Positions 9,144 to 46,819 of a stretch of DNA of 64,000 bases are shown piece after piece (within the stretch, counting starts at the first letter, position 1; each line of letters begins with the position of its first letter). The position numbers and the translations under genes are program-made. The stretch comes from Labrenzia sp. THAF82 (lineage in GTDB: Bacteria; Pseudomonadota; Alphaproteobacteria; Rhizobiales; Stappiaceae). The notes below the pieces were generated by a model. The model did not search any database. It was not told the DNA's origin and worked only from the letters and a program-made list of their open reading frames with translations. The stretch spans positions 3,748,501 to 3,812,500 of the forward strand of contig NZ_CP045354.1 of assembly GCF_009363435.1 (NCBI RefSeq), written 5' to 3'.

Positions 9144-9187
9144 CGCGCCCCTCACTTTTTTGTTTTGGCACCTTGCGTGTGATCTGT

Positions 9188-9205
9188 GATATTTTATACC
9201 ATATC
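9188..9205. promoter_or_regulatory. Possible GntR/FCD operator
   Basis: Interrupted palindrome GATAT-N8-ATATC enclosing TTATACC, in the 114-bp gap between the divergent TIGR04076-type gene and the GntR regulator. Position and AT content suit an operator for the adjacent regulator, but there is no second copy to compare. Confidence 0.35.
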
Positions 9206-9257
9206 TCAAATTGAAATTGTCAAGGCAAGAAACCCGTCAAGGGTCGAAGGAACAGGG

Positions 9258-9908: not shown

Positions 9909-9918
9909 AAGAATTTCA

Positions 9919-11400
9919 ATGACCGCTGCGCCCCTGCGCCATGCCATTTCAAGTGAACTGGAAATCAGCCGACTTGTGACAGGTTTGTGGCAAGTTGCCG
10001 ATATCGAAAAGACCGGTGACCTGCTTGACCCGGACAAGGCAGCTGACCACCTTGAGACCTATTTCAACGCCGGTTTTTCGACGTTTGACATGGCCGATCA
10101 TTACGGCAGTGCAGAACTCATTGCGGGCCGCCTGCTCACTCGCCATCAAGACGCTCGCAAACCGCAGATTTGTACAAAATGGTGCCCGGAACCCGGCCCA
10201 ATGACCCCGGAAATCGTTCGTGCTGGCGTTCAGGAACGGCTGGATCGGCTTGGAACCGATTGTATCGATCTGTTGCAGTTTCACTGGTGGAGCTTTGAAC
10301 ACCCAGCATGGCTCGACGCGCTTCATGAAATGACCAGGCTAAGAGAAGAAGGCTTGATTAAAGCCCTTGGCGTCACAAATTTCGACGCTGCGCATTTGCG
10401 ACTTGCTCTTGCTGACGGCATCCCTCTTGCGACAAATCAGGTTTCCTTCTCGATGGTCGATCGCCGTGCGCTGGGCCAACTTTCAGACCTTTGTGCCTCT
10501 TTCAATGTAAGCCTTCTGGCCTATGGCACCTTGTGTGGCGGCTTCCTGTCCGATCGCTGGCTTGGCCAGCCAGAACCATTGGATCTGACGGACTGGTCGA
10601 AGATGAAATACAAACGGTTCATCGACGCCACCGGGGGGTGGGCCGGATTCCAGAACATTCTTGAGGCAGCTTCAGAAGTTGCAACAAAACACCAAGTTTC
10701 ATTGGCAAATGTCGCGACACGCTGGGTACTGGAACAGGCCGCGGTTGCAGGCGTCATCGTTGGTGCTCGCCTTGGTGAGAGCGAACACATTACCGACAAT
10801 GCCAAACTGTTTTCCTTCGCGCTGGAAACAGAAGACCGGGAACGTCTCGACCAAGCGTTCAAAACCACTCACGAAGTTCCCGGCGATTGTGGTGATGAAT
10901 ACAGACGGCCACCATTTTTAACGGCGTCAGGAGACTTGAGCCATCACCTGGCGGAAATGCCCTTGGCACATAGTGCCGTGCCTGTGGATCATAGACCCGG
11001 CGCAACCCGCGTTTTAACCGGATCGGACTGGGAAGAAATCGCCGGTTACTGTCGTGCCCACAGGATCGGTGACCGGATCCTGGTTTCTGGCACCACAGCT
11101 GTTGCAGGCTTGTCTCGCGCAGTTGCGCCTGGCGATGCGGCGGCTCAAACGACCTATATCCTCGACAAGATACTTGCCGCACTTTCAGCGTTGGGGGCGT
11201 CGGCGCAAGATGTTGTCCGCACGCGCATCTACATCGTTGACGAAGACGATGTCCTCGACATTTCGAAAGCACATGGACGTGTGTTTTCCGATATCAAACC
11301 TGCAAATACGCTTGTCGTTGTTGCAGGACTTATTGGAGATCACAGGGTTGAAATTGAAGCCGAAGCTTCGCTGGTCGGGTCATCTGCTGTGTCCGACTGA
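9919..11400 (+). CDS. Aldo/keto reductase-RidA fusion protein
   Basis: 493-residue two-domain protein. Residues 1-345 form an aldo/keto reductase with the complete tetrad Asp57, Tyr62, Lys87 (ICTKW) and His122 (LLQFHWW). After a linker of about 25 residues, residues 370-485 are a RidA domain (RIGDRILVSGTTAV ... VEIEAEA). The Arg that anchors the substrate carboxylate in active RidA enzymes is replaced by Asn463 (KPANTL), so the domain probably does not deaminate imino acids and may bind a ligand or stabilise the oligomer. The two domains are in one uninterrupted frame with no internal stop. The start at 9919 lies 10 bp after the regulator stop. The gene ends tail-to-tail with the flavoprotein gene, overlapping by 21 bp. 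Confidence 0.8.
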   Translation: MTAAPLRHAISSELEISRLVTGLWQVADIEKTGDLLDPDKAADHLETYFNAGFSTFDMADHYGSAELIAGRLLTRHQDARKPQICTKWCPEPGPMTPEIVRAGVQERLDRLGTDCIDLLQFHWWSFEHPAWLDALHEMTRLREEGLIKALGVTNFDAAHLRLALADGIPLATNQVSFSMVDRRALGQLSDLCASFNVSLLAYGTLCGGFLSDRWLGQPEPLDLTDWSKMKYKRFIDATGGWAGFQNILEAASEVATKHQVSLANVATRWVLEQAAVAGVIVGARLGESEHITDNAKLFSFALETEDRERLDQAFKTTHEVPGDCGDEYRRPPFLTASGDLSHHLAEMPLAHSAVPVDHRPGATRVLTGSDWEEIAGYCRAHRIGDRILVSGTTAVAGLSRAVAPGDAAAQTTYILDKILAALSALGASAQDVVRTRIYIVDEDDVLDISKAHGRVFSDIKPANTLVVVAGLIGDHRVEIEAEASLVGSSAVSD

Positions 11401-12765
11401 TTGCCCTGCAAGCCGACCAAGGACAACGGCGCTCAACAATCCGTTTCCAGAAAGATAGCCGCTGTCAGACCGGCCCGACACACCACAGGCGGCACCGCCA
11501 CAGGCATGCAGATTGGGAAAAACGGTTCCGTCTGTTCGGAGAACGCGTGCGTTTTCATCCGTTCGCAGACCGCCCTGTGTGTGAAACAATGCGCCGGTGA
11601 CCCGGACCCCACAAAATGGAGCGGCGAGTTGCTCCGATACGAATTCACGACCGAATTCGTCTTTCCCCCTTGCGGGAAGCGTCGCCATCGTTTTCAAAAA
11701 CGGTTCGACGGGCAAGCCCAGTTCTTGTGCCAGTCCTTCCAGTGTTTCGCTGACCTTAACCGCACCAACGCCCTCAGCTTGCTTGAAGTCCTCAAACTGC
11801 CTGGCAATTGCGGCAATTCGACTGTCAAAAATGGTGAAAGCAATCCCCTCTGGCTGTGCCAGCACCGCACGTGCAGCTTCAGAGTAGCCCTGTGCTTCGT
11901 TCCAGAACCGCAAACCATCGCGATTGACCTGGACACCTCCTTGAGCAATCACGGCCCAAGTGATCAAGATTCCATGCGGGTGAGCAACATTGCCATGTCC
12001 CTGATAGGCTCCCAGATTGTTTAGTTCAGCACCAATCTCTTGCCCCCAAAGGAGCGCTTCCCCCCGATTGCCGTCGTGGCCAAACCAAAGTCCGCCTTCT
12101 ATGTCAGGCAGGAGCTGGCGAACCAGGTCCCGATTACCGCCAAAACCATTGCACGCAAGGATCAGTTTTTTGCACCCGATAGTCTCGGCACCGCCATCGG
12201 GACGTCTGACCGCAATACCCAGAACATTCCCGTCTTTGCAAAAAAGACGCGCCGCACGACGCTCACAAATAATATCGATATCGCAGCGTTCGCAGGTTGA
12301 CCTCAAAGCATTGATCAATTCGGCTCCGGATCGCGTCGGCAACCCGTGCATTCGGTGACGACTATGGCCTGGATATTCAAAGTTCGTTATGACCGAGAAC
12401 GGAAGCTGATACCTGTCGCTGAGCCAGTCTATTGTTGGTCCGGCGTTTTTCGCCAGGCGCTCAACCAATAACTGCTCGTTCTCATGCTTTGCCTTTGCCT
12501 GAATGTCCGCAGCAAAGAGCGTCGCATCATCCTCAATACCTTGTGCCGTCTGAAGCTTGGTGCCAGCAGCGGGAATGAGTCCTGCAGAAAGCGCAGTTGA
12601 CCCACTGGGTACAGCGTCTGCTTCAACAACCAATACTGATTGCCCAGTTTCATGTGCCGCGAGAGCGGCAACCAACCCGGCAGCGCCTGCACCGACAATC
12701 AAGGTCTCGCAATCTAGATCGAATGCGTCAGGCGGTGCGGCGACATCAACTGTCATTTCGGTCAT
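11380..12765 (-). CDS. FAD-dependent oxidoreductase, fumarate reductase flavoprotein-like
   Basis: 461-residue flavoprotein of the fumarate reductase/succinate dehydrogenase/3-ketosteroid dehydrogenase group. An N-terminal Rossmann FAD motif (TLIVGAGAAGLVAALAA, then VVEADAVPSGSTALSAG) and a C-terminal FAD-closing segment (NLHACGGAACGVSGRSDSG) are evident, with a TQGGL.TDENARV element typical of the family. ATG 12765 has an AAGG site; a TTG at 12783 is an alternative. No Tat or Sec signal, so it should be cytosolic. It is the last gene of the leftward hydantoinase operon, overlapping the lyase gene by 20 bp. It likely reduces or introduces a C=C next to a carbonyl or carboxylate in the pathway (inference). 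Confidence 0.78.
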   Translation of the reverse strand: MTEMTVDVAAPPDAFDLDCETLIVGAGAAGLVAALAAHETGQSVLVVEADAVPSGSTALSAGLIPAAGTKLQTAQGIEDDATLFAADIQAKAKHENEQLLVERLAKNAGPTIDWLSDRYQLPFSVITNFEYPGHSRHRMHGLPTRSGAELINALRSTCERCDIDIICERRAARLFCKDGNVLGIAVRRPDGGAETIGCKKLILACNGFGGNRDLVRQLLPDIEGGLWFGHDGNRGEALLWGQEIGAELNNLGAYQGHGNVAHPHGILITWAVIAQGGVQVNRDGLRFWNEAQGYSEAARAVLAQPEGIAFTIFDSRIAAIARQFEDFKQAEGVGAVKVSETLEGLAQELGLPVEPFLKTMATLPARGKDEFGREFVSEQLAAPFCGVRVTGALFHTQGGLRTDENARVLRTDGTVFPNLHACGGAACGVSGRSDSGYLSGNGLLSAVVLGRLAGQSVGHSR

Positions 12766-13612
12766 AGGCAACGCCTTTGGCAAGCATGTCAGCTGTGCCG
12801 ATCACGTCATTCAACCCGTTGAAATCGAACATTTTGTCCGCAAAGGGCCGGTTACTGCCGTTCTGACGAAGGCTTTCATAGTACTCAACCGCCGTCCGTC
12901 CAATCGCGCGTACGATCCCGCCTGGGAATATGACGATCGAATATCCTTGTTCTTCCAGATCGTCAGCTCCGGTGATCGGCGTTGCTCCACCTTCCACCAT
13001 ATTGGCAAGCAAGGGAACGCGAGGGGCAAATATCTGTGCGATCTCTGTGAGCTGTGCCCGCGATTGCGGAGCCTCGATGAAAAGCACATCAGCACCGGCT
13101 TCAAGGTATGCGTCAGCGCGATCTATCGCAGCCTGAAAGCCTTCAACCGCAATTGCATCAGTGCGTGCAATGATCAGCGTGTCTTCAGAGTTGCGGGCAT
13201 CTGCCATTGCTCTGACCTTACCCGCCATCTCATCGGCTGGTATCAGGGACTTGTCTGCCAGATGTCCACATCGCTTCGGGTAGGTTTGGTCTTCCACCTG
13301 CAGTGCGGACGCCCCTGCTCGCTCATATAGGCGCATGGTGCGCTGTGCGTTCAGCGCATTTCCGAACCCGGTATCTGCATCGATAATCACCGGCAATTCA
13401 GTTCGGTCCGCGATCAACGCCATCGTGTCAGCCATTTCGGTGACTGCTGTCAGACCGATGTCCGGTCGGCCAAGACGAGTATAGGAAACAGCTGCGCCAC
13501 TCAAATAAAGCGCTTCAAACCCGGCGGCTGCAGCCAGGGACGCCGTGAGGCCGTCATAGACACCAGGGGCAACCAGAATGTTGCTTTGCTGAAGACGAGA
13601 TTTAAGGCTCAT
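12746..13612 (-). CDS. Isocitrate lyase/PEP mutase superfamily C-C lyase
   Basis: 288-residue TIM-barrel enzyme of the ICL/PEPM superfamily, which includes 2-methylisocitrate lyase, 2,3-dimethylmalate lyase, oxaloacetate decarboxylase and PEP mutase. The Mg-binding DADTGFGN motif is at residues 78-85. The gating-loop motif KRCGH, with the catalytic Cys115 of the true lyases, is present, which favours C-C bond cleavage over mutase activity. Length matches the methylisocitrate/dimethylmalate lyase group. It overlaps the isochorismatase-like gene by ATGA. Given LeuCD-type hydro-lyase genes in the divergent operon, a substituted malate is a reasonable substrate (inference). Confidence 0.8.
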   Translation of the reverse strand: MSLKSRLQQSNILVAPGVYDGLTASLAAAAGFEALYLSGAAVSYTRLGRPDIGLTAVTEMADTMALIADRTELPVIIDADTGFGNALNAQRTMRLYERAGASALQVEDQTYPKRCGHLADKSLIPADEMAGKVRAMADARNSEDTLIIARTDAIAVEGFQAAIDRADAYLEAGADVLFIEAPQSRAQLTEIAQIFAPRVPLLANMVEGGATPITGADDLEEQGYSIVIFPGGIVRAIGRTAVEYYESLRQNGSNRPFADKMFDFNGLNDVIGTADMLAKGVAYDRNDS

Positions 13613-14229
13613 GCGGCTGCCTCCAACCAGGCTGACGCATCTCTGCAGCTCATCTGGTGAGTGACCGTTGCAAGCGACAGGAGTGTTGCCTGGTGCACAT
13701 CATCCTTGAATGCCGCACTGCCATCGGTCAGGAGCATCGTGTCGATGTTACGCAAGTGTGCGTCTCGCAAAGTGGACGCAACGCCGCCGTTGGTCACGAT
13801 GCCACCGACAATAAGGTTATCGATACCGACAGCTCTCATGATGTACTCAAGCCTGGTTTGATAGAATGCCGAATAGGCCACCTTCTCCACTACGAAATCC
13901 GCCGGGAAAAGTTCGTCTACCAGCGTGTTGCCGAAACTCCCCGGTGCAAAGTCTCCCTTGCCGAGAAAGGGGCGCAGTTTCTTCAAGTGAGGCGCGATGA
14001 GCGGTTCCCCGCGCGCATCGGGTACTAGAGTAAACTGCGCCGAGATATAGTGACCTCCACGATCCCGCAAAGTTTTTACCAAAGGTGCAATGCGTTTCGG
14101 AAGTGCAGCTATTGAATCTGCGCGCTGTCCTGCCCGACCGTAGGCTCCTTCTGGATGAAGAAAGTCGTTCTGCAGATCAATCGTCAGGAGTGCCGTCCTG
14201 GCCAGATCCCAGTTTGTCGGCTCATTCAC
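13609..14229 (-). CDS. Isochorismatase-fold protein with Cys-to-Gly at the catalytic position
   Basis: 206-residue protein of the isochorismatase/cysteine hydrolase fold. Asp18 (TIDLQNDF) and Lys116 (VVEKVAYSAF) of the catalytic triad are present, but the Cys of the usual TNxCVxxT motif is Gly149 (TNGGVASTLRDA). Amidases of this fold need the Cys; vinyl-ether hydrolases such as PhzD and EntB work without it. The protein may thus hydrolyse an enol ether or C-N bond without a thioester, or be non-catalytic. It is flanked by ATGA overlaps with HyuA and the lyase, so it is firmly part of the operon. Confidence 0.8.
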   Translation of the reverse strand: MNEPTNWDLARTALLTIDLQNDFLHPEGAYGRAGQRADSIAALPKRIAPLVKTLRDRGGHYISAQFTLVPDARGEPLIAPHLKKLRPFLGKGDFAPGSFGNTLVDELFPADFVVEKVAYSAFYQTRLEYIMRAVGIDNLIVGGIVTNGGVASTLRDAHLRNIDTMLLTDGSAAFKDDVHQATLLSLATVTHQMSCRDASAWLEAAA

Positions 14230-16289
14230 GATGGGACCTCCGTGGGTTCGATAATGGTGTTTCCAAAAGCATCGACGCGTGCCTGAAGATTTGGCTCAAC
14301 CAGAACCGTTGTGTCGGGCTGTTCCAATATGGCCGGTCCTTGGATCACGGCACCAACTGGAAGCGTTAGTCGGTCGTAAATCAACGTGTCATGCCAAGTG
14401 TCATCGAAATGAACCTGCCGGCTGTTTTTCGGAGAGACAGCACCTTCAACGGCTGGCGCGAGCGTTTTCAAGTCAAATTTGGGGCGTTTGCCGGTGACTG
14501 CGCTCCGCAAATTAAGAATCCGGCGAATACCGTTCTTCAACAGCCTTCCAAACGTGCCTTCATAGACCCGATCGAAGGCGACCTCGATTTCAGATCGAGT
14601 TGGTGGAAAAACCACTCCGTCTTTAACCTGAATGTCCAGTGGCACGGAGACAGTGTGTGTCTGCCCAACATAAGCCATATCCAGCTCAAAGCTGTACTCG
14701 CGTGCTTCGAAGTTGGTGCGTGCCGCATCTAACATTGCCTGTCCACGATCGGAATGCGCCTGCATGAACTGACCAAGAGCTTCCTCGTCCAGCGCTGAAA
14801 CCAGAGAGTTGATCGTTTGAACAAAGTCCTGGCGCATATCCGCAATGACGCACCCCATGGCCGATGTCACACCTGGATATCGGGGCACGATAGCTTTGGC
14901 GATCCCGACATCGGCAAGCATTGCGCCTGCATGCAACGCCCCGCCACCACCAAATGGCATAAATGCGAAGTGTTTCGGATCGAAACCTCGCTCGATGGAC
15001 ACCAACCGGATGGCGCCAGCCATGCGCGAATTGGCAACGCGAAGAATTGCTTCGGCAGCCGCTAGTGTTTCAAGCCCAAGAGGCTCGCCGACATGTTTGT
15101 CGATAGCCTTTGCCGCAGCATCTACATCAAGCCTGGCAAGCTTGCCGCCAATTGGATTTTCAGGGTCGATCCGACCAAGAACGACGTTCGCATCGGTTAC
15201 CGTGGGCCGCGTGTTGCCCAAACCATAGGCCACCGGCCCTGGATCAGAACCTGCGCTTTCCGGTCCGATATTGAGGAGCCCTCCCTTATCAACCCAGGCA
15301 ATCGACCCGCCACCAGCCCCGATCGTCGTAATTTCGATCATCGGTGTACGAACAACCATCCCGAAATCAATGGAAGTTTGCGGTGACAGCATTGAGTGAC
15401 CTTGAGAGATCAGGGACACATCAAAACTGGTTCCGCCCATATCTCCCGTAATGACATTGTCGAAGCCAGCTGAAGACGCAATGTAACCGGCTGCGATCAC
15501 TCCGGCAGCTGGACCTGACAAAGCAGTGCGTACCGGCAAACGGCACGCAGTATCCACTGCCATGACCCCGCCGTTGGATTGCACAATCATGAATTCGCCG
15601 TCGAAACCGCCCAACTTGAGCGCACCCTCCAGACGATCCAGATACCCGGAAACTTCGGGCTGCAGGTAGGCATTCAGGGCTGTTGTGGAAAATCGCTCGA
15701 ATTCACGGATTTCCGGCAGGATCTCCGAAGACGCCGAGACATGAGGGTTCGGCCAGATCTCGCGCACGACATTGACTGCAGCCGTTTCGTTTTGTGGATT
15801 TGCATATGAGTTGGCAAACAAGATCGCAACCGCTTCGCAGCCTTGCTCTTTCAATTGTTTGGCAGCGGCCCTAACAGCCTCAAGATCGACCGGAGTGCGG
15901 ATTGAACCGTCGGCAAGCGTCCTTTCAGGAACTTCCAGACGATTGCGCCGATCCACGACCGGTTCGAAATCTCCGCGTAAGCCCCAGGTACGGGGCCGGT
16001 CTCGGCGACGCATTTCCAGAACATCTCGCAGACCTTCGGTACAAATGACGCCTGTGGTTGCACCCTTGCGCTCGAGCAAGGCGTTTGTTCCTGCTGTTGT
16101 TCCGTGAACCACGACAGATATCCCGGCAAGGTCAGAAACCTGTCGGGCGATACCATCCAGAAATCCGCCTGACTGATCTGGACGGGTTGTCGGCACCTTA
16201 GCAACGGACGCACTGCCATCCGTTTCGTTCAAAACAAAGACGTCCGTGAAAGTGCCGCCGACATCGACGCCAATCATGCGCACACTCAT
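14226..16289 (-). CDS. hyuA: Hydantoinase/oxoprolinase family protein, subunit A
   Basis: 687-residue HyuA-type subunit. The actin-like ATPase motifs are clear: GVDVGGTFTDVFVL at residues 8-21 and GDMGGTSFDVSLI near residue 280, with a conserved FGGGGALHAG segment in the second half. The family includes N-methylhydantoinase, 5-oxoprolinase, caprolactamase and acetone/acetophenone carboxylases, which phosphorylate their substrate to open a ring or carboxylate a ketone. It overlaps HyuB by ATGA and the isochorismatase-like gene by ATGA. Which of these chemistries applies cannot be read from the sequence. Confidence 0.87.
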   Translation of the reverse strand: MSVRMIGVDVGGTFTDVFVLNETDGSASVAKVPTTRPDQSGGFLDGIARQVSDLAGISVVVHGTTAGTNALLERKGATTGVICTEGLRDVLEMRRRDRPRTWGLRGDFEPVVDRRNRLEVPERTLADGSIRTPVDLEAVRAAAKQLKEQGCEAVAILFANSYANPQNETAAVNVVREIWPNPHVSASSEILPEIREFERFSTTALNAYLQPEVSGYLDRLEGALKLGGFDGEFMIVQSNGGVMAVDTACRLPVRTALSGPAAGVIAAGYIASSAGFDNVITGDMGGTSFDVSLISQGHSMLSPQTSIDFGMVVRTPMIEITTIGAGGGSIAWVDKGGLLNIGPESAGSDPGPVAYGLGNTRPTVTDANVVLGRIDPENPIGGKLARLDVDAAAKAIDKHVGEPLGLETLAAAEAILRVANSRMAGAIRLVSIERGFDPKHFAFMPFGGGGALHAGAMLADVGIAKAIVPRYPGVTSAMGCVIADMRQDFVQTINSLVSALDEEALGQFMQAHSDRGQAMLDAARTNFEAREYSFELDMAYVGQTHTVSVPLDIQVKDGVVFPPTRSEIEVAFDRVYEGTFGRLLKNGIRRILNLRSAVTGKRPKFDLKTLAPAVEGAVSPKNSRQVHFDDTWHDTLIYDRLTLPVGAVIQGPAILEQPDTTVLVEPNLQARVDAFGNTIIEPTEVPS

Positions 16290-17980
16290 TGGGAGACCTC
16301 CCGCCAGGCAACTCCGTATAGGCGGTCTGCTGTAGCTGGGTTCACAAGGCCTCGGGCAACATCACGGGCAACATCTTCAGCAACGCGCTCCTCGGCTTTT
16401 CCGTAACCACCGCCGCCAGGTGTTTCCAGACGCACGCCCTGACCCTGGCGCAATTTGATACCCCGCATTTTGGATGCTAGTGGCGGTGTTTCCCAACCGT
16501 GATCCTGTTCGAAGGAAAACCTGTTCATCGCACCGTCTTGTCCATCCGCAATCCCCTTGGGCGCGAAACGCCCCCGCTCGCCAAACAGGAATGCTTCCGC
16601 TCCGTTTTCCTCCAGCACCTCTATCTCGTAGACTGCCCCCATCCCTCCTCTGTGCTTGCCGGCTCCTGAGCTGTCAGATCTTAGCGCCCACTTTCGAAAC
16701 ATCACCGGATAGGCGGCCTCAAGGATTTCCATCGGTGGAATGGTCGCGGTTGAAATCGGTGCATTGCCGTGATTGAGACCATCGCTTTCCGGCGACCCGC
16801 CATGTCCACCTCCATAGAAGCTGAACATCACCCAAGGCTGGCCATTGCTTCTCTTTCCGGCGATAGACAAAGCATTGATGGTGCCATAGGCGTTTGCGAC
16901 AACACGGTCGGGAGCTGCCTTTGCAAAGGCTGAAAAAATGACGTCAATCATTCTAAGGATTGTTTCGGTATAGCCACCGGTCGGGGCCGGAAACTCGGCT
17001 GAGAGCAACGACCCTTCAGGCACGATCACATCGATGGGCCGCATGACGCCAGCGTTTGCCGGCAGGGTCGGAAAGATGTGTTTAATCGCGACATAGGCAG
17101 TCGCAACAGTGGTTGGCAGCGCGATATTCACCGGCCCTGCGCATTGATCCGCCGAACCGGAAAAGTCGAGCGTCATTTTGTCGTCGCTGATCTGAAGCGC
17201 TACGCGAATGGCCAGTGGCTCATCCGTTATGCCATCATTGTCGAGATAGTCTTCCGCTTCCCAGCGTCCGTTTGGCAGTTCCTTCAATTCAGACCGCATC
17301 AGAGCTTCAGCGCGATGACCCAAGGAATCTAGCGCCGACCCAACTGTTTCAGCACCATACTCCTCCATCAACTCATCCATTCGCTTTGTGCCGAGGTCCA
17401 GCGCACTCAGCTGCCCGTTCAAATCTCCCATTGCGGATTGCGGTAGCCGGGTGTTGCGAAGAAGGATGTCTATGATGTCCTGGTTGATGACACCAGCACG
17501 GGCAAGCCGCACCGGTGGAAGCACAAAAGCTTCTTGAAATACCTCAGTGGCAGCAGGGTTGTAGTTGCCAGGCACGGCCCCTCCGACATCATGCCAATGC
17601 CCGACCGAAGCAAGATAACAAAACAATTCACCGTCCCGGAAATACGGCCGGACGAGACGCATATCAGACAGGTGCGTTCCGCCAATATGCGCGTCATTGA
17701 AGATGAAAATATCCCCGTCCTGCAAGTCTCCCTCGGAGGCTGCCTTTTCGATGACCGCCTTGACTGCGAAGGCCATCACGCCAACGAAAATCGGTAGACC
17801 CGACTTGCCTTGAACCAGTGTGTCTCCAGTATCGGCATGGTAGAGACCATGGCTGGCATCATGTGCCTCGGCAATTATCGGGTTGAAAGCCGCCCGGAAC
17901 AGCGTTGCGTCCATTTCATCCGCAATCTGTTCCATGCGCCCCGCCAAAACCGACAAGGTGATGGGGTCAATATCGCTCAT
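16286..17980 (-). CDS. hyuB: Hydantoinase/oxoprolinase family protein, subunit B
   Basis: 564-residue HyuB-type subunit, the partner of HyuA. Recognisable parts are the start DPITLSVLAGRMEQIADEMDATLFRAAFNP, the metal-site region FIFNDAHIGGTHLSDMRLVRP near residue 95, the TGGYTETILRMIDVIF segment and the C-terminal TPGGGGYG. Length agrees with the roughly 520-590 residues of the family. ATGA overlaps on both sides show coupled translation with HyuA and the upstream tautomerase fusion. Confidence 0.87.
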   Translation of the reverse strand: MSDIDPITLSVLAGRMEQIADEMDATLFRAAFNPIIAEAHDASHGLYHADTGDTLVQGKSGLPIFVGVMAFAVKAVIEKAASEGDLQDGDIFIFNDAHIGGTHLSDMRLVRPYFRDGELFCYLASVGHWHDVGGAVPGNYNPAATEVFQEAFVLPPVRLARAGVINQDIIDILLRNTRLPQSAMGDLNGQLSALDLGTKRMDELMEEYGAETVGSALDSLGHRAEALMRSELKELPNGRWEAEDYLDNDGITDEPLAIRVALQISDDKMTLDFSGSADQCAGPVNIALPTTVATAYVAIKHIFPTLPANAGVMRPIDVIVPEGSLLSAEFPAPTGGYTETILRMIDVIFSAFAKAAPDRVVANAYGTINALSIAGKRSNGQPWVMFSFYGGGHGGSPESDGLNHGNAPISTATIPPMEILEAAYPVMFRKWALRSDSSGAGKHRGGMGAVYEIEVLEENGAEAFLFGERGRFAPKGIADGQDGAMNRFSFEQDHGWETPPLASKMRGIKLRQGQGVRLETPGGGGYGKAEERVAEDVARDVARGLVNPATADRLYGVAWREVSQ

Positions 17981-18543
17981 AAACCTGCCTTTACTTCAGC
18001 AATGTCATTCCAAACGTCCTGGCGGCTGATTTTGCCCTTCACCAGTTCGAATCGATCGATAAAACGGATGTTTTCAAATGGCGTTCCGTCGAGCCATTCG
18101 CCCGACAGCGTGCCCCGGCAATAAACCAGAACTTCAGGCCCGGAACTCTGCATGACATCGAAACCCAAGTAAGCTTTCTTGACAAAGCGGTAGCGCTGCG
18201 TCGCCCACTTGATCAACGTTTCGAGCTCATGCATTGGCTGAGCACCGGGAAAAAACATGGCAAAGTCTTCTGCTAGAAACGCTCGTGCGGCCTCGATTTC
18301 ACGAGCTTCCATGGTCTTAAGAAAAGCCCTGACTATCTCCCCTGCATCACCAAGGGCCGGCGCTCCTTTGCGCTGTTTGCCACCGCGCGAATAGTTGGCA
18401 GCTTTCATTTCGTGGATCATTACTGTGATCGCATCGGGGCTGGCGGGAACGACAAGCCGAACTGCATCGGTCAATGCCGTGTGCAACCGACGCTTTTCAT
18501 CCGTCCCATAACCTTCCAGGACATGCAGCTCGACAATCGGCAT
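17977..18543 (-). CDS. 4-oxalocrotonate tautomerase-SnoaL fusion protein
   Basis: 188-residue two-part protein. Residues 1-62 resemble a 4-oxalocrotonate tautomerase monomer, with Pro2 available as the catalytic N-terminal base after Met removal (MPIVELHVLEGYGTDEKRRL). Residues 66-188 look like an NTF2/SnoaL-type alpha+beta cone (EIVRAFLKTMEAREIEAARAFLAEDFAMFFPGAQP, then FENIRFIDRFELVKGKI). Both parts are known in isolation; the joined form is unusual. It is the first gene of the leftward operon, 146 bp from the divergent regulator start, and overlaps HyuB by ATGA. A keto-enol or double-bond isomerase role on an unsaturated acid intermediate is inferred. Confidence 0.72.
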   Translation of the reverse strand: MPIVELHVLEGYGTDEKRRLHTALTDAVRLVVPASPDAITVMIHEMKAANYSRGGKQRKGAPALGDAGEIVRAFLKTMEAREIEAARAFLAEDFAMFFPGAQPMHELETLIKWATQRYRFVKKAYLGFDVMQSSGPEVLVYCRGTLSGEWLDGTPFENIRFIDRFELVKGKISRQDVWNDIAEVKAGL

Positions 18544-18555
18544 ACCGCCTCCGTG

Positions 18556-18626
18556 ACAAATTTGTACTATTTATAATACAGATTATTCTCTCTTGTTAAT
18601 ACAGAAATTTTGTATTCCAACATACA
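18556..18626. promoter_or_regulatory. Cluster of TGTA...TACA palindromes (putative GntR operators)
   Basis: The 145-bp divergent gap holds several related inverted repeats: ACAAATTTGT (18556-18565, perfect), TGTACTAT-TT-ATAATACA (18563-18580, 7 of 8 arm positions symmetric on allowing for the centre), AATACA-N7-TGTATT (18598-18616) and TGTAT-N6-ATACA (18611-18626). The recurring TGTA/TACA ends suggest a multi-site operator for the adjacent GntR protein, controlling both operons. They overlap where core promoter elements would be expected. Confidence 0.55.
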
Positions 18627-18688
18627 GAAGCTTGATCTTTTTAAAACCTGCTGTCACATTGAACGCGTTGCAAAGAGGACTTTACGGC

Positions 18689-19492
18689 GTGAATAAACCT
18701 GAAAAATCATTGCTTCCAGATGGAGCCAAGGCACGTCAGGTTTACCTCTCCCTGCGCGACCAAATCGCCGACGGCCGTCTTGAAGACGGTGAAAACCTGC
18801 CGCCCGAACAAAAGCTTGCTGAGATATATGCCGTATCTCGGGTAACTGTTCGAAGAGCACTCGATGCGTTAGCAGCAGCAGGCCTGATTGTCCGGCGGGC
18901 CGGCAGCGGAACAACGGTCAGCACGTCCGGCAAATCGGGAAAGCCGATGGCCATGAACCTGGCAACGCTGATGCCGCAGCTTGTCGAAATGGGGCAATCC
19001 ACTACGGCGCGCCTGTTGTCTTTTTCATATGGTGCCGCACCGGAATTCGTCGCGAACGCTCTTAGATTGGACCCAAAGGAACAGGTTCAAATAGCAACTC
19101 GCGTACGTAGCGCGGACGAGATCCCCTTCTCTCACCTTACGACATATGTGCCGGCCACGATTGCTAGCAACTATTCAGAAAACGATCTTGCCACAACGCC
19201 TTTATTCAAACTTCTCGAGTTGAGCGGTGTCCACATCAAGGACGCCCACCAATCTGTGTCGGCAACATTGGCCGGACCCGAGGTTGCCGAGGCACTGGGC
19301 ATTGCGGTTGGATCGGCTTTGCTATCGCTCCGCCGGGTCGTGCGCGACGTAAATGACAATGGAGTTGAGTTTCTCTCAGGTCTCTACCGCCCGGATATGT
19401 TTCGACTTGAAATGCCTCTCACCCGCGTTGGAGAGGAAAGTGCGCGCCATTGGGAACCGGCAATCGGCAAACCATCCGGTGAACAAGCATGA
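18689..19492 (+). CDS. GntR family transcriptional regulator (HutC/UTRA subfamily)
   Basis: 267-residue regulator from the GTG at 18689, which has a GAGGA site upstream; the frame is open further upstream but that part lies in the operator cluster. Residues about 15-85 form the winged helix (LPPEQKLAEIYAVSRVTVRRALDALAAAGLIVRRAGSGTTV split over the recognition helix and wing). The remainder is a UTRA ligand domain (IPFSHLTTYVP, GSALLSLRRVVRD, FLSGLYRPDMFRLEM). Its stop overlaps the LeuC-type start by ATGA, so regulator and hydro-lyase are co-expressed. It most likely responds to a pathway acid and controls both divergent operons. Confidence 0.85.
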   Translation: MNKPEKSLLPDGAKARQVYLSLRDQIADGRLEDGENLPPEQKLAEIYAVSRVTVRRALDALAAAGLIVRRAGSGTTVSTSGKSGKPMAMNLATLMPQLVEMGQSTTARLLSFSYGAAPEFVANALRLDPKEQVQIATRVRSADEIPFSHLTTYVPATIASNYSENDLATTPLFKLLELSGVHIKDAHQSVSATLAGPEVAEALGIAVGSALLSLRRVVRDVNDNGVEFLSGLYRPDMFRLEMPLTRVGEESARHWEPAIGKPSGEQA

Positions 19493-20895
19493 CGTTGCCG
19501 CGCACGCTTTTAGACAGGCTTTGGGCCACGCATGAAATCGTCTTGCGAGAGGACGGCGCTTCGCTCCTGTGGGTTGATAGGCACCTTGTCCACGAGGGTT
19601 CCCATCATGCCTTCAATAAGCTTCGGGTTCGTGAGATTGCTGTTGCCGAACCGGACCTGACATTCGCAGTTGTAGATCACTACGCGCCAACACGTGACCG
19701 CCAACGGATATCAAGCCCTCAGATTCAGTACATGATCGAGACACTGCGAAAAAACGCAGGCCGACACTGTTTGAAATTGTTTGACATCGACGATCCACGT
19801 CAAGGCATTGTGCACGTCGTTGGACCTGAACAGGGACTGACCCTGCCCGGCCTTCTGATCAATTGTGGCGATAGCCATACGTCCACGCACGGGGCATTCG
19901 GTGCGCTCGCATTCGGCATCGGAGCAACTGAAGTCGCTCACGTACTTGCCACGCAAACGATTTGGCAAAAGAAGCCTGCTGTGATGCGCATTTGGATTGA
20001 TGGCCAGCTTGGCCCTGGCGTGAGCGCAAAAGACCTCGCCCTCAACTGGATTGCTGCTCTTGGTGCGGACGGTGCGCGTGGTCACGCGATCGAATATGGT
20101 GGCAGCGCCATTCGCGACCTGACAATGGAAGGGCGCATGACCCTATGCAACCTCTCCATTGAGGGAGGCGCAAGGCTCGGTCTGATCGCACCAGACCAGA
20201 CAACATTCGATTATGTTGAAGGACGGCCTTTCGCGCCTACCGGCGCAGAATGGGAAGCGGCTGTTGAGGCCTGGAGCGAGCTCCGCTCCGATGACGACGC
20301 TCATTTTGACAAAGAAGTCCATCTGAGCGGCGATGACATAGCACCGACAGTCACCTGGGGTACCAGTCCGGACCAAGCTATTCCCGTGACAGCGGCGATA
20401 CCGGATCCGAAATCGCTTGTGAACGGCAAGGCACAGTCTGTCGAAGATGCGCTTGACTACATGCAGCTGTCTGCAGGTCGCCCGATCGAGGGCACGCCGA
20501 TCGATCAGGTTTTTGTTGGCTCCTGCACAAATGGGCGCATTGAGGATTTGCGCATTGCAGCTGCCGTCCTTGCAGGTCGAACAGCCAAGGTGCCAGGGCT
20601 CATCTCTCCAGGGTCTGCACAGGTCAAGACACAAGCGGAACAGGAAGGCCTGGACAAGGTTTTCATCGACGCCGGACTTGAATGGGCTTCACCTGGATGT
20701 TCGATGTGTGTCGGTATGAATGGAGATCTTGTCCAACCTGGCAAAAGGTGTGCTTCGTCCACCAATCGCAACTTTCGCGGACGCCAGGGACCTGGTTCAC
20801 TGACGCATCTGATGTCGCCTGCAATGGTGGCCGCTGCGGCTGTAACAGGAGAAATCACCGACGTTCGACCACTCTTGAAGGGGCGGTTGATATGA
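19489..20895 (+). CDS. LeuC-type hydro-lyase large subunit (aconitase superfamily)
   Basis: 468-residue large subunit with the three [4Fe-4S] ligands Cys346 (VGSCTNG), Cys404 and Cys407 (PGCSMCVG). Family segments NCGDSHTSTHGAFGALAFGIG and NRNFRGRQG are present. LeuC-type pairs also serve as citramalate/methylmalate isomerases, maleate hydratase and dimethylmaleate hydratase. Because no leuA or leuB is nearby, the gene is co-transcribed with a regulator and TRAP transporter, and a malate-type lyase sits in the divergent operon, a catabolic hydro-lyase is more likely than leucine biosynthesis (inference). ATGA overlaps join it to both neighbours. Confidence 0.82.
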   Translation: MTLPRTLLDRLWATHEIVLREDGASLLWVDRHLVHEGSHHAFNKLRVREIAVAEPDLTFAVVDHYAPTRDRQRISSPQIQYMIETLRKNAGRHCLKLFDIDDPRQGIVHVVGPEQGLTLPGLLINCGDSHTSTHGAFGALAFGIGATEVAHVLATQTIWQKKPAVMRIWIDGQLGPGVSAKDLALNWIAALGADGARGHAIEYGGSAIRDLTMEGRMTLCNLSIEGGARLGLIAPDQTTFDYVEGRPFAPTGAEWEAAVEAWSELRSDDDAHFDKEVHLSGDDIAPTVTWGTSPDQAIPVTAAIPDPKSLVNGKAQSVEDALDYMQLSAGRPIEGTPIDQVFVGSCTNGRIEDLRIAAAVLAGRTAKVPGLISPGSAQVKTQAEQEGLDKVFIDAGLEWASPGCSMCVGMNGDLVQPGKRCASSTNRNFRGRQGPGSLTHLMSPAMVAAAAVTGEITDVRPLLKGRLI

Positions 20896-21515
20896 CCTCA
20901 GGGTGGACGCAACACGAAGGCCACGCGATTGTTTTGCCGGCTCACAATGTCGATACGGACCAGTTGATTCCATCCAGGTTCATGTCGACACCGCGCGATG
21001 AAGGCTATGGTAAGTTCCTGCTGCATGATCTTCGCCGGGATGCCGATGGCAACGAACACCCACATTTCCCGCTGAACCGTTTCCGAAACGCCAGCATACT
21101 TGTTGCCGGGCGCAACTTTGGCAGTGGGTCGTCCCGCGAGGCTGCTGTTTACGCTTTGGTTGATGCCGGAATCCGAGCGGTATTCGCACCGAGTTTTGGT
21201 GACATATTCTCTAGCAACGCAATCAACAACGGGATGCTGCCCGCGCAAATATCTCCAGCGGACCACATCACATTAATTGGCTTATTGAATGAGACTTCAA
21301 TGCGCGCGCAGATTTGCCTGGAGGAAAGTCACATCAGCATTGGTGACTGCAGAATAGGTTTTGAACTCGACCAGACCTGGCGGACAAAACTGATCAATGG
21401 CTGGGACGACATTGATCTGACCTTGCAGCGCAGCCAAGACATTAAAAAACATAAGAAAAATCTTGAGCAATCGACGCCGTGGATCCTTCCCACGGCAAAT
21501 CGACAACGATGTTGA
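20892..21515 (+). CDS. LeuD-type hydro-lyase small subunit
   Basis: 207-residue swivel-domain subunit that completes the LeuC-type enzyme. Hallmarks are HNVDTDQLIPSRFM near the start and GRNFGSGSSREAAVYAL with FGDIFSSNAINNGMLP. ATG 20892 overlaps the large-subunit stop (ATGA); longer readings upstream are shadows of LeuC. The C-terminus carries a Lys-rich, slightly longer tail (residues 180-207). A gap of 84 bp with a GGAG site separates it from the TRAP genes. Confidence 0.82.
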   Translation: MTSGWTQHEGHAIVLPAHNVDTDQLIPSRFMSTPRDEGYGKFLLHDLRRDADGNEHPHFPLNRFRNASILVAGRNFGSGSSREAAVYALVDAGIRAVFAPSFGDIFSSNAINNGMLPAQISPADHITLIGLLNETSMRAQICLEESHISIGDCRIGFELDQTWRTKLINGWDDIDLTLQRSQDIKKHKKNLEQSTPWILPTANRQRC

Positions 21516-21599
21516 AGCAACCAACAACCTAAGCATCAGGGCATTGCCTGAGAACCAGAGGGATAAGGCATAAAGCCAACCCTAAAGTGGAGTGAGACT

Positions 21600-22613
21600 A
21601 TGAAAAGACTAATACTTGCCGGTCTTGTCGCCGGCTCGGCTCTGTTCTCTGCCTCAGCACTGGCGGAAGACAAAATCACAGCAGTTCACGCATTTCCAGA
21701 AACGCTGATCTACACCAAAAGCTTCCTGTCCTTCGTGGACAAAGTGAACGAAGCCGGAAAGGGTGTGGTGCAAATTGAAGTCCGTGGGGGTCCTGAGGCC
21801 ATCGGTATGTTCCAGCAGCCTGACGCGGTTCGCGATGGTATTGTGGACATGGTCTATACGCCTGGTTCGTTTTATGGCGGAGCACTTCCCGAAAAAGATG
21901 CCATGGTCGCGTCCAACCTGACCGCAGTCGAAACCCGTGAAAACGGCGGCATTGAGCTTATCGATCAGATCCATCAGGAAAAGATGGGATTGAAGTACCT
22001 TGGCTGGTTCGACAGTGGGGTCTGCTACAATCTTTGGACCAGAGACGAGCCAACCTTTGACAAGGACGGCAACCTTGAAGTTGAAGGCCTGAAACTGCGC
22101 GGCAACAACGTCTACAATGCGTTCTTTACAAACTACCTCGGCGCACAGGTTATCGATCTCCCAACTGGTGAAGTCTATTCCGCCCTTCAGCGCGGCGTTG
22201 TTGATGCAACTGGCTGGACCCAGATCGGTCTCATCGACCTGAAATGGAACGAGTTCCTGAACTATCGCATCGAGCCCTGCTTTTTCTCCACAGACCTTGG
22301 CGTCATCGTCAATCTTGAGAAGTGGAACTCTCTTTCCGATGAATCCAAAAAGATCCTTCAGGACGTCGCCATCCAGCACGAAAAGGATAGCGTTGAAGCC
22401 CTTCGCGCCAAACGCGATGAAGACTTTGCTGCTCTCGATGCTGCGGGCATGACAGCTATCTCCCTGGAAGGAGAAGCCAAGGCCAATTACCTCGCCGCCG
22501 CGCGTGAAAAGACCTGGGAGCGGATGAAGGGCCTGATGGCAGAACAGCCAGGTGGCACCGGAAACTATGACCGGTTGATCGAACTGTTCTACGATCTGAA
22601 TTCGGCCAAATAA
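21600..22613 (+). CDS. TRAP transporter substrate-binding protein (DctP family)
   Basis: 337-residue periplasmic receptor with a signal peptide (MKRLILAGLVAGSALFSASALA). The segment GLKLRGNNVYNAF contains the conserved Arg that forms a salt bridge to the carboxylate of TRAP ligands, so an organic acid is the likely ligand. NL.KWNSLSDESKKILQDVA is a typical C-terminal element. It is followed by an intercistronic stem-loop and then the two membrane genes. Linked to the hydro-lyase, it probably imports the pathway substrate. Confidence 0.87.
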   Translation: MKRLILAGLVAGSALFSASALAEDKITAVHAFPETLIYTKSFLSFVDKVNEAGKGVVQIEVRGGPEAIGMFQQPDAVRDGIVDMVYTPGSFYGGALPEKDAMVASNLTAVETRENGGIELIDQIHQEKMGLKYLGWFDSGVCYNLWTRDEPTFDKDGNLEVEGLKLRGNNVYNAFFTNYLGAQVIDLPTGEVYSALQRGVVDATGWTQIGLIDLKWNEFLNYRIEPCFFSTDLGVIVNLEKWNSLSDESKKILQDVAIQHEKDSVEALRAKRDEDFAALDAAGMTAISLEGEAKANYLAAAREKTWERMKGLMAEQPGGTGNYDRLIELFYDLNSAK

Positions 22614-22619
22614 GTGAAT

Positions 22620-22647
22620 AGCAGGCCCGCTTAGCAGCGGGCCTGCT
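22620..22647 (+). terminator. Intercistronic stem-loop between dctP and dctQ
   Basis: Perfect 11-bp stem AGCAGGCCCGC / GCGGGCCTGCT with a 6-nt loop, starting six bases after the dctP stop. There is no adjacent T-run (a T10 tract comes 15 bp later). It likely attenuates readthrough or protects the dctP mRNA 3' end so that the receptor is made in excess over the membrane subunits. Confidence 0.65.
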
Positions 22648-22672
22648 CATCTGGCATCCAGGTTTTTTTTTT

Positions 22673-23179
22673 ATGAGCGGTCTTATTAGGTCTTACAGGT
22701 TATTGATCAATGCCATGGCCTTTGTCGCCGGAGCCACGCTTGTTTGGCTGATGGTATCGGTCGTGGTTTCGGTTCTGATGCGCAATCTTGGCCTTCAACC
22801 CTTCGCCTGGCTTTTCACCTCTTCTGAATATGGACTGCTCTACATGACCATGCTTGGTGCACCCTGGTTGGTACGCGAAAAGGGGCATGTTCACATTGAG
22901 CTGGTCACCTCAATCTTGCCTGAAACGTCCCGCCGTGTTGTCAGTCGGTTGGTCGCATTTGCGTGTGTGGTTGTGTGCATCATTCTAGCCTGGAAGGGGC
23001 TGGAACTGTTTTTGAAAAATATTGAACGCGGTGACTATGACACCCGCGCCTATTACTATCCACGATGGCTGCTGACAGTCGCGTTCCCCGTAAGCTTCGG
23101 CTTGATGGCAATTGAATTCTTCCGCTTTGTAACGGGCTCCGATCTCATGCACACCGGCGAAGCGGGGATCCACGAATAA
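22673..23179 (+). CDS. TRAP transporter small permease (DctQ family)
   Basis: 168-residue membrane protein with four hydrophobic segments, the number expected for DctQ. A typical RVVSRLVAFACVVVCIILAWKG stretch lies in the middle, preceded by VREKGHVHIEL. The ATG follows a CCAGG site and a run of ten T (22663-22672). Its TAA stop shares its last base with the ATG of the large permease. Confidence 0.83.
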   Translation: MSGLIRSYRLLINAMAFVAGATLVWLMVSVVVSVLMRNLGLQPFAWLFTSSEYGLLYMTMLGAPWLVREKGHVHIELVTSILPETSRRVVSRLVAFACVVVCIILAWKGLELFLKNIERGDYDTRAYYYPRWLLTVAFPVSFGLMAIEFFRFVTGSDLMHTGEAGIHE

Positions 23180-24486
23180 TGGAATGGTACGAAGCGCTGG
23201 CCCTGCTGATCGGGGTAATCGTATTACTCATGGCCATGGGCATGCCGGTTGCGCTGGCGTTTCTCGCCGCGAACATCATCGGCGCCTGGGTGTTCATGGG
23301 TGGTGAACGCGGCATCGGGCAGTTGCTCAACAATGGCCTTGGTTCACTGACGAAATTCGCCCTTGTTCCGATCCCTTTGTTTCTGCTTATGGGAGAAATC
23401 TTTTTTCATACGGGCCTTGGCGGGCGCATGTTCAATGCGATCGACCGACTGCTGGGTCGCCTTTCCGGCCGGCTGAGCTATGTTACCGTCCTGGGAGGGA
23501 CGGCTTTCTCGACATTGTCCGGATCGTCGATGGGCTCAACTGCTCTGCTCGGCTCACTTATGGTGCCGGAGATGAACAGGCGTGGATACAAGCCTCACAT
23601 GAGCATCGGCCCAATCCTGGGAACGGGTGGCCTTGCAATCATCATCCCGCCTTCTGCACTTGCAGTTCTACTGGCCACACTGGCGCAAATTGACGTTGGA
23701 GCGTTGCTGATCGCCGGTGTGATACCCGGGTTGATCCTGGCGTTTTTCTATATCGGCACGATCTGGCTTCAAACGCGATTGGATCCGAACGCGGCCCCTG
23801 CTTACGACGTTGAACCACTGTCTTTCATGAGTAAGGTCACACTGCTTCTGCGCGAAGTCGTGCCAATGGTTGGCGTTATGGTCGTCATCATCATCTTGAT
23901 GATCAACGGTTTCGTGACACCTTCCGAAGCGGCCGCCTTCGGCGCGCTCGGCGTGATTATCCTTGCAGCCGTTTTCAGGTGCCTGACTTGGGAGGCGATG
24001 CGCAAGTCCGTGACAGGTGCTTTGAAAGTAACGCTGATGGCCTATCTGATTGTTTTTGGATCTGCGACATTCAGCCAGCTTCTCGCCTTTTCCGGTGCTT
24101 CGCGCGGATTGGTCAATTGGGCTATTTCCTTTGAGTTGGCACCAATCGCCATGCTTATGGTCATGTTTGCGGTGCTGTTGCTTCTCGGCATGTTCATGGA
24201 ACAGATTTCCATCATGCTCTTGACCGTGCCGATATTCTTTCCTCTGGCAATGAACCTTGGCTTTGACCCGATATGGTTTGGCCTGATCATGCTGTTGGCG
24301 CTTGAGATCAGTTTTACAACACCCCCGTTCGGGCTGTTGCTGTTTGTTATGAAGGGCGTTGCGCCACCTGGAACGAGCATGCGCACGATTTACACATCCG
24401 CCTTTCCGTTTATCGGTTGCTCGCTGTTGCTCGTGGTTCTTCTCGTCGTTTTTCCTGAACTCGCACTTTGGTTGCCCGGCCTTTAG
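23179..24486 (+). CDS. TRAP transporter large permease (DctM family)
   Basis: 435-residue polytopic permease with about 12 hydrophobic segments. DctM hallmarks are GMPVALAFLAANIIGAW near the start, ALLGSLMVPEMNRRGY and IIIPPSALAVLLATLAQIDVG in the first half, and MFMEQISIMLLTVPIFFPL plus FTTPPFGLLLFVMKGVAP in the second. It completes the binding protein-dependent secondary importer. Confidence 0.87.
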   Translation: MEWYEALALLIGVIVLLMAMGMPVALAFLAANIIGAWVFMGGERGIGQLLNNGLGSLTKFALVPIPLFLLMGEIFFHTGLGGRMFNAIDRLLGRLSGRLSYVTVLGGTAFSTLSGSSMGSTALLGSLMVPEMNRRGYKPHMSIGPILGTGGLAIIIPPSALAVLLATLAQIDVGALLIAGVIPGLILAFFYIGTIWLQTRLDPNAAPAYDVEPLSFMSKVTLLLREVVPMVGVMVVIIILMINGFVTPSEAAAFGALGVIILAAVFRCLTWEAMRKSVTGALKVTLMAYLIVFGSATFSQLLAFSGASRGLVNWAISFELAPIAMLMVMFAVLLLLGMFMEQISIMLLTVPIFFPLAMNLGFDPIWFGLIMLLALEISFTTPPFGLLLFVMKGVAPPGTSMRTIYTSAFPFIGCSLLLVVLLVVFPELALWLPGL

Positions 24487-32023: not shown

Positions 32024-32034
32024 TTCACCCTCTC

Positions 32035-32592: not shown

Positions 32593-32814
32593 GACCTCTC
32601 CCCCGATTGGAACATGCTGGCGACAGCTGGTCGTCAGGCAACGCTTGGGAGAGTACAAACGCAGGCGACCGTCAACATTGACATGTCTCAATCGTTTCAA
32701 AGGCTGTCGTCTGCAACCCAGAAATGAATGCTGGTTTGAGTTGATTTGGAAGGTCGGCAGACACGCCAAAAGTCAGTCGTCAATGGAGACCACGTGACAT
32801 AATCTTGACGACCG

Positions 32815-46817: not shown

Positions 46818-46819
46818 CT

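Follow-up and report, generated by a model that had tools for sequence, protein, structure and literature searches.

A conserved alphaproteobacterial gene set with hydantoinase, hydratase and lyase genes as a candidate catabolic route for a propionate-bearing cyclic imide

Closest described systems and the proposed route

The tail of nicotinate fermentation in Eubacterium barkeri consists of dimethylmaleate hydratase (DmdAB) and 2,3-dimethylmalate lyase. Lyases of the isocitrate lyase (ICL) superfamily convert a 2-hydroxy-3-substituted succinate to a 2-oxo acid and an acid, and the LeuCD, HacA/DmdB and MmgE/PrpD families act on pairs of unsaturated acids and hydroxy acids. The gene set described here combines such enzymes with an ATP-dependent hydantoinase (HyuAB) in Labrenzia sp. 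THAF82, within 64,000 nucleotides of contig NZ_CP045354.1 (positions 3,748,501 to 3,812,500; this whole stretch is referred to as the window). Genes in the window were identified from open reading frames (ORFs) and with Pfam and NCBIfam models. Twelve genes, in two divergent operons around one GntR regulator, were all found where the original prediction had placed them (Table 1). The minus-strand arm is transcribed in the order tautomerase-SnoaL, HyuB, HyuA, isochorismatase-fold hydrolase, PrpB/ICL-type lyase and flavoprotein, and the plus-strand arm in the order GntR, LeuC, LeuD, DctP, DctQ and DctM.

The likeness to the E. barkeri tail lies in an aconitase-family hydratase and an ICL-superfamily lyase for a substituted maleate or malate, and in the LeuD/DmdB-type small subunit seen in the representative of some loci. 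The two operons of the window differ from it in having no nicotinate genes (Pfam and NCBIfam scan), in the ATP-dependent HyuAB and the Cys-less hydrolase placed in front, and in the acid released, which is propionate in E. barkeri and is indicated to be glutarate for the window-type module. The combination had been said to match no fully known pathway, and no description of it was found, by title and start of abstract, among the open-licence matches listed. It is a strongly conserved and seemingly undescribed combination of known enzyme families.

The reading that we favour, tentatively, is a catabolic regulon for a five-membered cyclic imide with a propionate side chain, the best candidates being hematinic acid (3-(2-carboxyethyl)-4-methylmaleimide) and the dihydro form from chlorin rings. 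The TRAP system would import the acidic ring, in saturated forms the flavoprotein would introduce the double bond of the ring (or diacid), and the tautomerase may shift a double bond. HyuAB would open the imide with ATP. The isochorismatase-fold enzyme would then release ammonia, with the substrate's own neighbouring carboxylate perhaps attacking the amide in place of a Cys. The LeuCD-like pair would hydrate the cis-diacid to a substituted malate, and the lyase, with its KRCGH loop, would cleave this to pyruvate and glutarate. Glutarate would be converted to crotonyl-CoA by a CoA-transferase and glutaryl-CoA dehydrogenase (GCDH), which are encoded in the operon in some relatives and elsewhere in the genome of the window. 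We infer the substrate and all reactions from family chemistry, as we do every link from gene position to compound. The chemical logic first proposed for the locus (opening of a cyclic imide, loss of nitrogen, hydration of an unsaturated diacid and cleavage of a substituted malate) is largely upheld, being consistent with the gene families and with how they are conserved; its short acid and its ligase did not hold.

Conservation of the gene set and the proposed link to glutarate

Gene content, conservation, residue changes and the operon link to GCDH were observed directly, in 119 collected loci. Four plasmid loci (L035-L038) were chosen by the lyase. A profile search of contigs with the isochorismatase fold gave 295 relatives, of which the best 80 were taken (L039-L118). 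When the order was searched with HyuA, 64 of 297 genomes had a match at E<=1e-150, and 35 stretches (L119-L153) were chosen after this search. The query gene of each set is present by construction, and the counts for the other genes are independent of locus selection. L152 and L153 hold HyuA paralogs only (46-47% identity) and no module. Two identical pairs leave 117 distinct loci. Genes in the relatives were called with a home-made codon-bias caller. Presence was scored by BLAST at 1e-8 or by 38%-identity clusters, for any family member within the stretch, and these counts may include a few unrelated LeuC-family, flavoprotein or ABC genes. Residue counts were restricted to rows that share at least 45% (isochorismatase fold, lyase) or 40% (flavoprotein) identity with the protein of the window.

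Comparable loci were defined as the 92 distinct loci of at least 15 kb that hold the isochorismatase-fold gene. HyuA and HyuB were present in all 92, the lyase in 91, a hydratase in 87, the flavoprotein in 83 and an importer in 82, with GntR in 65 and the tautomerase in 60. The hydratase was of the LeuC family in 82 loci and of the MmgE/PrpD type in 12 (some with both), and the importer was of the TRAP type in 59 and of the branched-chain ABC type in 27. This neighbourhood comparison of HyuAB with LeuCD-like genes, which had been put forward as a check on the locus, shows that the two operons co-occur, contrary to the outcome that would have refuted the prediction. The association of the genes is beyond chance. 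The set recurs across many genera (HyuA and HyuB identity about 57-89%). Sulfitobacter plasmids carry copies with the entire gene order, and in Azospirillum and Roseomonas the core is kept and importers or hydratases differ. Across the phylum, eight of 398 sampled genomes, including that of the window, carry the hydrolase at E<=1e-60. One of the eight belongs to another class, and its locus (L185) holds lyase, flavoprotein, hydrolase, HyuAB and LeuCD-type genes and an ABC importer.

In 11 of the 119 loci (10 of the 117 distinct), the flavoprotein gene and a GCDH gene overlap by 8-14 bases. A CoA-transferase gene follows GCDH at -4 to +2 bases in nine of these (eight of the ten distinct); in the remaining two, the contig ends in one and the next gene is on the other strand in the other. 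Carriers include Cohaesibacteraceae, Marivita (Marivita lacus, L110), Boseongicola, Dinoroseobacter and other alphaproteobacteria. The identity of GCDH by solved relatives was taken from one representative (L121), to which the other members were joined by similarity: it scored 702 bits to 4w9u (named acyl-CoA dehydrogenase), 611 to the GCDH 3gnc and 551 to the GCDH 1sir, and the best chain outside the GCDH-named group reached just 221 bits. By these scores the operon-borne enzyme is clearly assigned to GCDH, well apart from other acyl-CoA dehydrogenases. Two representatives of the CoA-transferase scored 529 and 538 bits with the succinate-glutarate CoA-transferase model, the next model giving at most 303. 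On a HyuB tree (FastTree, 112 rows), the GCDH label needs 4-5 changes, at least four of them forced by well-supported branches, gains and losses being not separable. Genomes G021 and G134 (G134 78% complete) have no GCDH match at E<=1e-140 other than the operon copy; the GCDH gene of the window's genome lies far from the module, at C1:83062.

Operon-borne GCDH in ten distinct loci, eight of them with a glutarate CoA-transferase-like gene, makes glutarate the likely short acid, and more likely than propionate. A PrpE-like ligase (AMP-binding enzyme, window 87-1778) had been proposed to activate the short acid. In the 119 loci (flanks of only about 10 kb) no close homolog was found, the single match being at 22% identity, and the ligase was rejected as a pathway part. 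The same observations bear on the reading that came with that ligase, namely the same route with other substituents, by which a dialkylmaleimide or alkylsuccinimide (for example dimethyl- or ethylmethylmaleimide) would give a 2-oxo acid and propionate or butyrate. Its enzyme order would be identical, and the lyase is nearest to methylisocitrate lyase and has the 2,3-dimethylmalate lyase 3fa3 among its solved relatives. The operon-borne GCDH and CoA-transferase genes argue against it, as does the ligase, which has no relative recurring in the flanks, and a TRAP acid importer would suit a carboxylate better than a neutral imide. We regard this reading as rather unlikely.

Candidate substrate and the enzymes of the module

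If the acid is glutarate, the substituent of the malate would be 2-carboxyethyl. The lyase scored 301 bits with the methylisocitrate lyase model and 69 bits with the isocitrate lyase model, which suggests that the carbinol carbon bears a methyl group and that the second product is pyruvate. With a carboxyethyl and a methyl branch, the dehydrated diacid would be 2-(2-carboxyethyl)-3-methylmaleate, and its imide hematinic acid. If the substrate were instead the imide or lactam of a homoaconitate-like triacid lacking the methyl group, cleavage would yield glyoxylate and glutarate. This would explain glutarate equally well, and a HacA-family (homoaconitase-type) hydratase occurs in some loci (above family cut-offs in L126). 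The two lyase scores speak against this alternative, and we know of no abundant natural imide of such a triacid; it seems quite unlikely.

An acid importer fits hematinic acid. According to a passage of PMC10343206, the oxidation of heme yields hematinic acid, as does the action of E. coli ChuS on heme by a citation given there; a passage of PMC7318184 states that it arises from chlorophyll in vitro and is also present in leaves, and the same paper puts the yearly formation and destruction of chlorophyll on a scale of 10^12 kg. Bacterial catabolism of hematinic acid or of one-ring maleimide fragments was not found, by title and start of abstract, among the open-licence matches listed. A narrower form of the proposal, a dedicated pathway for the propionate-bearing heme or chlorophyll fragment (hematinic acid and its dihydro form) with a substrate-assisted, Cys-less amidase, in which the neighbouring carboxylate of the dialkylmaleamate would stand in for the nucleophile and HyuAB would spend ATP since dialkylmaleimides resist net ring opening, is doubtful. 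Should the hematinic acid reading hold, this end of marine tetrapyrrole turnover would have a recognisable genetic marker in a gene set that is widespread in alphaproteobacteria and at present carries annotations for leucine synthesis and 'cysteine hydrolase'; the hydrolase would offer a testable case of an amidase that lost its nucleophile.

A further alternative is that HyuAB opens a lactam from the breakdown of an N-heteroaromatic (pyridine or pyrrole), in a route resembling nicotinate fermentation with a DmdAB/dimethylmalate-lyase tail. The LeuD/DmdB-type small subunit occurs, and on a Sulfitobacter plasmid (L036) the cluster adjoins genes for a molybdenum hydroxylase, 6-hydroxynicotinate reductase and an amidohydrolase. 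This was seen in one locus only, and no gene of the other 118 loci, whose neighbours are annotated in part, is related to the hydroxylase and reductase genes at 38% identity or more; we consider this alternative unlikely. The stretch concerned (L036 17104-24849, Sulfitobacter sp. S190 plasmid) holds xanthine-dehydrogenase-family, 6-hydroxynicotinate reductase, UPF0280, two 'amino acid synthesis' and amidohydrolase genes.

Several observations weigh against hematinic acid as substrate or glutarate as product. No heme, bilin or chlorophyll gene was present among the annotated neighbours scanned, only part of the neighbours being annotated. The ligand of the closest TRAP structure (4mnc/4mni, the nearest solved chain of DctP, E 1e-49) is reportedly benzoylformate. 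The Cys-less hydrolase may catalyse another reaction or none. Among the comparable loci, the flavoprotein is missing in nine and the hydratase in five, and the importer is not in view in ten. Three GCDH representatives are under the cut-off of NF045552 (217, 211 and 208 of 470 bits), and the CoA-transferase is under that of the succinate-glutarate model (529-538 of 750). No GCDH gene adjoins in 80 of the 90 HyuB-tree rows with a visible neighbour, the window included. GCDH is near-universal in the order, being present in 43 of 44 genomes with module-type HyuA and in 33 of 36 without it (the 44 are from 46 genomes with HyuA at 59% identity or more; besides the window's own, 32 were inspected as loci). 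Its presence or absence (76 of 80 genomes have it) was therefore rejected as uninformative, and the weight falls on operon position alone.

The hydratase slot holds three types, LeuCD (PRK12466-like, as in the window), a HacA/DmdB-type pair and MmgE/PrpD. In the representative L126 both the HacA-family and the LeuD/DmdB models were above their cut-offs. With states assigned by identity thresholds, five changes are needed on the HyuB tree. That distant or unrelated enzymes fill one slot suggests a single necessary reaction, the simplest candidate being the hydration of an unsaturated acid ahead of the lyase; hydration looks to be required and the enzyme exchangeable. It could be held instead that LeuCD serves leucine synthesis and the lyase the methylcitrate cycle, beside an unrelated hydantoinase operon. 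The LeuC and LeuD of the window do score above cut-off with the isopropylmalate dehydratase models of NCBI, including the curated TIGR00170 for LeuC (610 bits, cut-off 560). A second LeuC in the genome (G000:C1:399842) scores higher with TIGR00170 (795 bits) and with PRK05478 (825 versus 663 for the module), which argues against a leucine role for the module LeuC. The genome also has two other PrpB-like genes, one of them beside an aconitase and a PrpF-like gene, and the gene set is conserved as a unit. On these paralogs and the co-conservation, the leucine and methylcitrate roles were rejected as very improbable.

The lyase carries the K-K/R-C-G-H catalytic loop and the metal-site aspartates of the ICL/PrpB superfamily. 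K113, C115, D78 and D80 were found in 113 of 113 rows, and position 114 is Arg in 108 and Lys in five. The likeness to the methylcitrate cycle (PrpB, PrpD, AcnD/AcnB) consists of the PrpB-like lyase and of the MmgE/PrpD genes in the 12 comparable loci mentioned above. The window's operons differ from that cycle in lacking a citrate synthase and in having imide-opening enzymes and their own importer, and the lyase differs from PrpB in its motifs (EGG and PGG at the sites of EFG and PLS) and in scoring under the curated cut-off of 2-methylisocitrate lyase (301 versus 354 bits). At about 2.21 Mb of the same contig (L178 7812-13285, G000:C1), one of the other PrpB-like lyase genes adjoins an aconitase gene and a PrpF/oxalomesaconate-tautomerase-like gene, possibly another tricarboxylate route of the same genome.

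The isochorismatase-fold protein of the original prediction has the fold, and its catalytic Cys is gone: the motif TNVCV of RutB aligns with TNGGV. Gly149 replaces the nucleophilic Cys in 117 of 117 aligned rows, and TNGG is present in 114 of 114 distinct members and in five later loci, one being a copy of L115. Asp18 and Lys116, which we take to be the catalytic Asp and Lys of isochorismatase-like amidohydrolases, are kept in 117 of 117 rows. An AlphaFold model (pLDDT 85) was nearest to triuret hydrolase (TrtA), RutB and biuret hydrolase (BiuH), all at probability 1.00, with NicF (maleamate amidohydrolase) further down. The predicted protein is an amide-hydrolase fold without a nucleophile: it shares fold, Asp and Lys with NicF, RutB, BiuH and TrtA and differs from them in Gly for Cys in every member examined. 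Reportedly, Kirby and Lancaster observed that alkyl groups on the double bond strongly accelerate maleamic amide cleavage. One possible chemistry for the hydrolase is substrate-assisted catalysis by a neighbouring carboxylate. Cleavage of maleamic amides by attack of the adjacent carboxyl group is described in a passage of PMC3913492.

HyuAB falls, by family criteria, with the ATP-dependent hydantoinases/lactamases, with ring hydrolysis as the predicted reaction. HyuA is nearest to the solved N-methylhydantoinase 7hk5 (436 bits), ahead of acetophenone carboxylase gamma (319) and acetone carboxylase (222); HyuB is likewise nearest to N-methylhydantoinase (266 bits). The domains of both are full length and closer to hydrolases than to carboxylases, and no further carboxylase subunit was found in the two operons (Pfam and NCBIfam scan). 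Full-length subunits are shared with N-methylhydantoinase and caprolactamase (CapAB). The window HyuAB is under the CapAB cut-offs (510 of 1000 and 311 of 1000 bits), and it differs from both systems in its linkage to a hydratase and a lyase.

The flavoprotein is of the flavocytochrome c/fumarate reductase-like family, and the catalytic and substrate arginines of fumarate reductase proved to be replaced by Tyr. Relative to flavocytochrome c3 (Fcc3), R402 corresponds to Tyr300 and R544 to Tyr443, with H365 and H504 kept; the two sites are Tyr in every ungapped row (99 of 99 and 97 of 97, respectively). In Fcc3, Arg402 is the proton donor and Arg544 the substrate Arg. The enzyme is judged from these tyrosines not to be a standard succinate/fumarate enzyme. 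It shares the family and the two histidines with TcuA and fumarate reductase flavoproteins, the arginine comparison covering fumarate reductase. It is probably an alpha,beta-desaturase. One possibility would be desaturation next to the ring carbonyl, as in ketosteroid dehydrogenases; a second would be that it oxidises a saturated triacid, the type of reaction carried out by tricarballylate dehydrogenase (157 bits).

Locus layout, regulator and neighbouring genes

Table 1. Features of the two divergent operons, in window positions
Feature	Position	Strand	Models and evidence
Flavoprotein, flavocytochrome c/fumarate reductase-like family	11380..12783	-	PF00890 E 4.9e-54; TIGR01813 235 bits, under cut-off 285
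PrpB/ICL-superfamily C-C lyase (KRCGH)	12746..13612	-	PF13714, PF00463; TIGR02317 301 bits, cut-off 354
Isochorismatase-fold hydrolase without catalytic Cys	13609..14229	-	PF00857 E 3.1e-30
HyuA, ATP-dependent hydantoinase/lactamase subunit	14226..16289	-	PF05378, PF01968, PF19278
HyuB, partner subunit	16286..17980	-	PF02538 E 9.4e-171
Tautomerase + SnoaL fusion	17977..18543	-	PF01361 residues 2-56, PF12680 residues 71-174
Operator-like imperfect inverted repeat, divergent promoter	18561..18581		Shared words in intergenic regions
GntR/HutC-type regulator, UTRA domain	18690..19492	+	PF00392, PF07702
LeuC-like hydratase large subunit, PRK12466 type	19489..20895	+	PF00330; NF009116 717 bits, cut-off 531
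LeuD-like hydratase small subunit	20892..21515	+	PF00694; NF002458 201 bits, cut-off 167 (score for the longer ORF 20682-21515; ATG 20892 taken as start)
TRAP solute-binding protein DctP	21600..22613	+	PF03480
TRAP small permease DctQ	22673..23179	+	PF04290
TRAP large permease DctM	23179..24486	+	PF06808

Every junction had been described as nearly overlapping. This is so for most: overlaps of four bases were found at tautomerase/HyuB, HyuB/HyuA, HyuA/isochorismatase, isochorismatase/lyase, GntR/LeuC and LeuC/LeuD, the lyase and flavoprotein genes overlap by 11 to 38 bases (set by the choice of flavoprotein start), and DctQ and DctM by one base. Gaps of 84 and 59 bases separate LeuD from DctP and DctP from DctQ. 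For GntR, the start GTG at 18690, following AAAGAGGA, appears better placed than TTG at 18593 and was preferred, which gives a divergent promoter of 146 bases.

The words of the inverted repeat are common to 63 intergenic regions (10 of the 63 inspected). With at most three mismatches the repeat has one further site in the 6.4-Mb genome, and the regulator therefore looks local; a reversed control pattern matched twice. A link between the GntR operator and the distant GCDH gene (G000:C1:83062) was rejected, the site being found only at the divergent promoter and that one other place.

Beyond the flavoprotein gene, window 9186-11400 holds a GntR/FCD regulator and then the gene of an aldo-keto reductase-RidA/L-PSP fusion, which runs towards the flavoprotein gene and overlaps its end by 21 bases. 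The fusion was rejected as a pathway part, with no match at E 1e-15 in the 119 loci. In relatives L137, L140, L146 and L148 the module is followed by an M24 peptidase (cluster c29), chemoreceptor-type genes (c20) and an amidase (c30); c20 includes an L037 gene annotated as methyl-accepting chemotaxis protein. Genes of the Asp/Glu/hydantoin-racemase family are near eight of the 92 comparable loci, and they adjoin the module in two unlike contexts (L113 12547-14028 and L061 12844-13617). Further along the window, at 28108-32769, a split 2-oxoacid:ferredoxin oxidoreductase (POR gamma, POR_N and TPP-binding subunits) is encoded with a GltD-like Fe-S flavoprotein, adjoining an amidohydrolase and a SIS-domain gene. 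An M81 metallopeptidase/MlrC-family gene (PF07364, PF07171) lies at 45294-46916.

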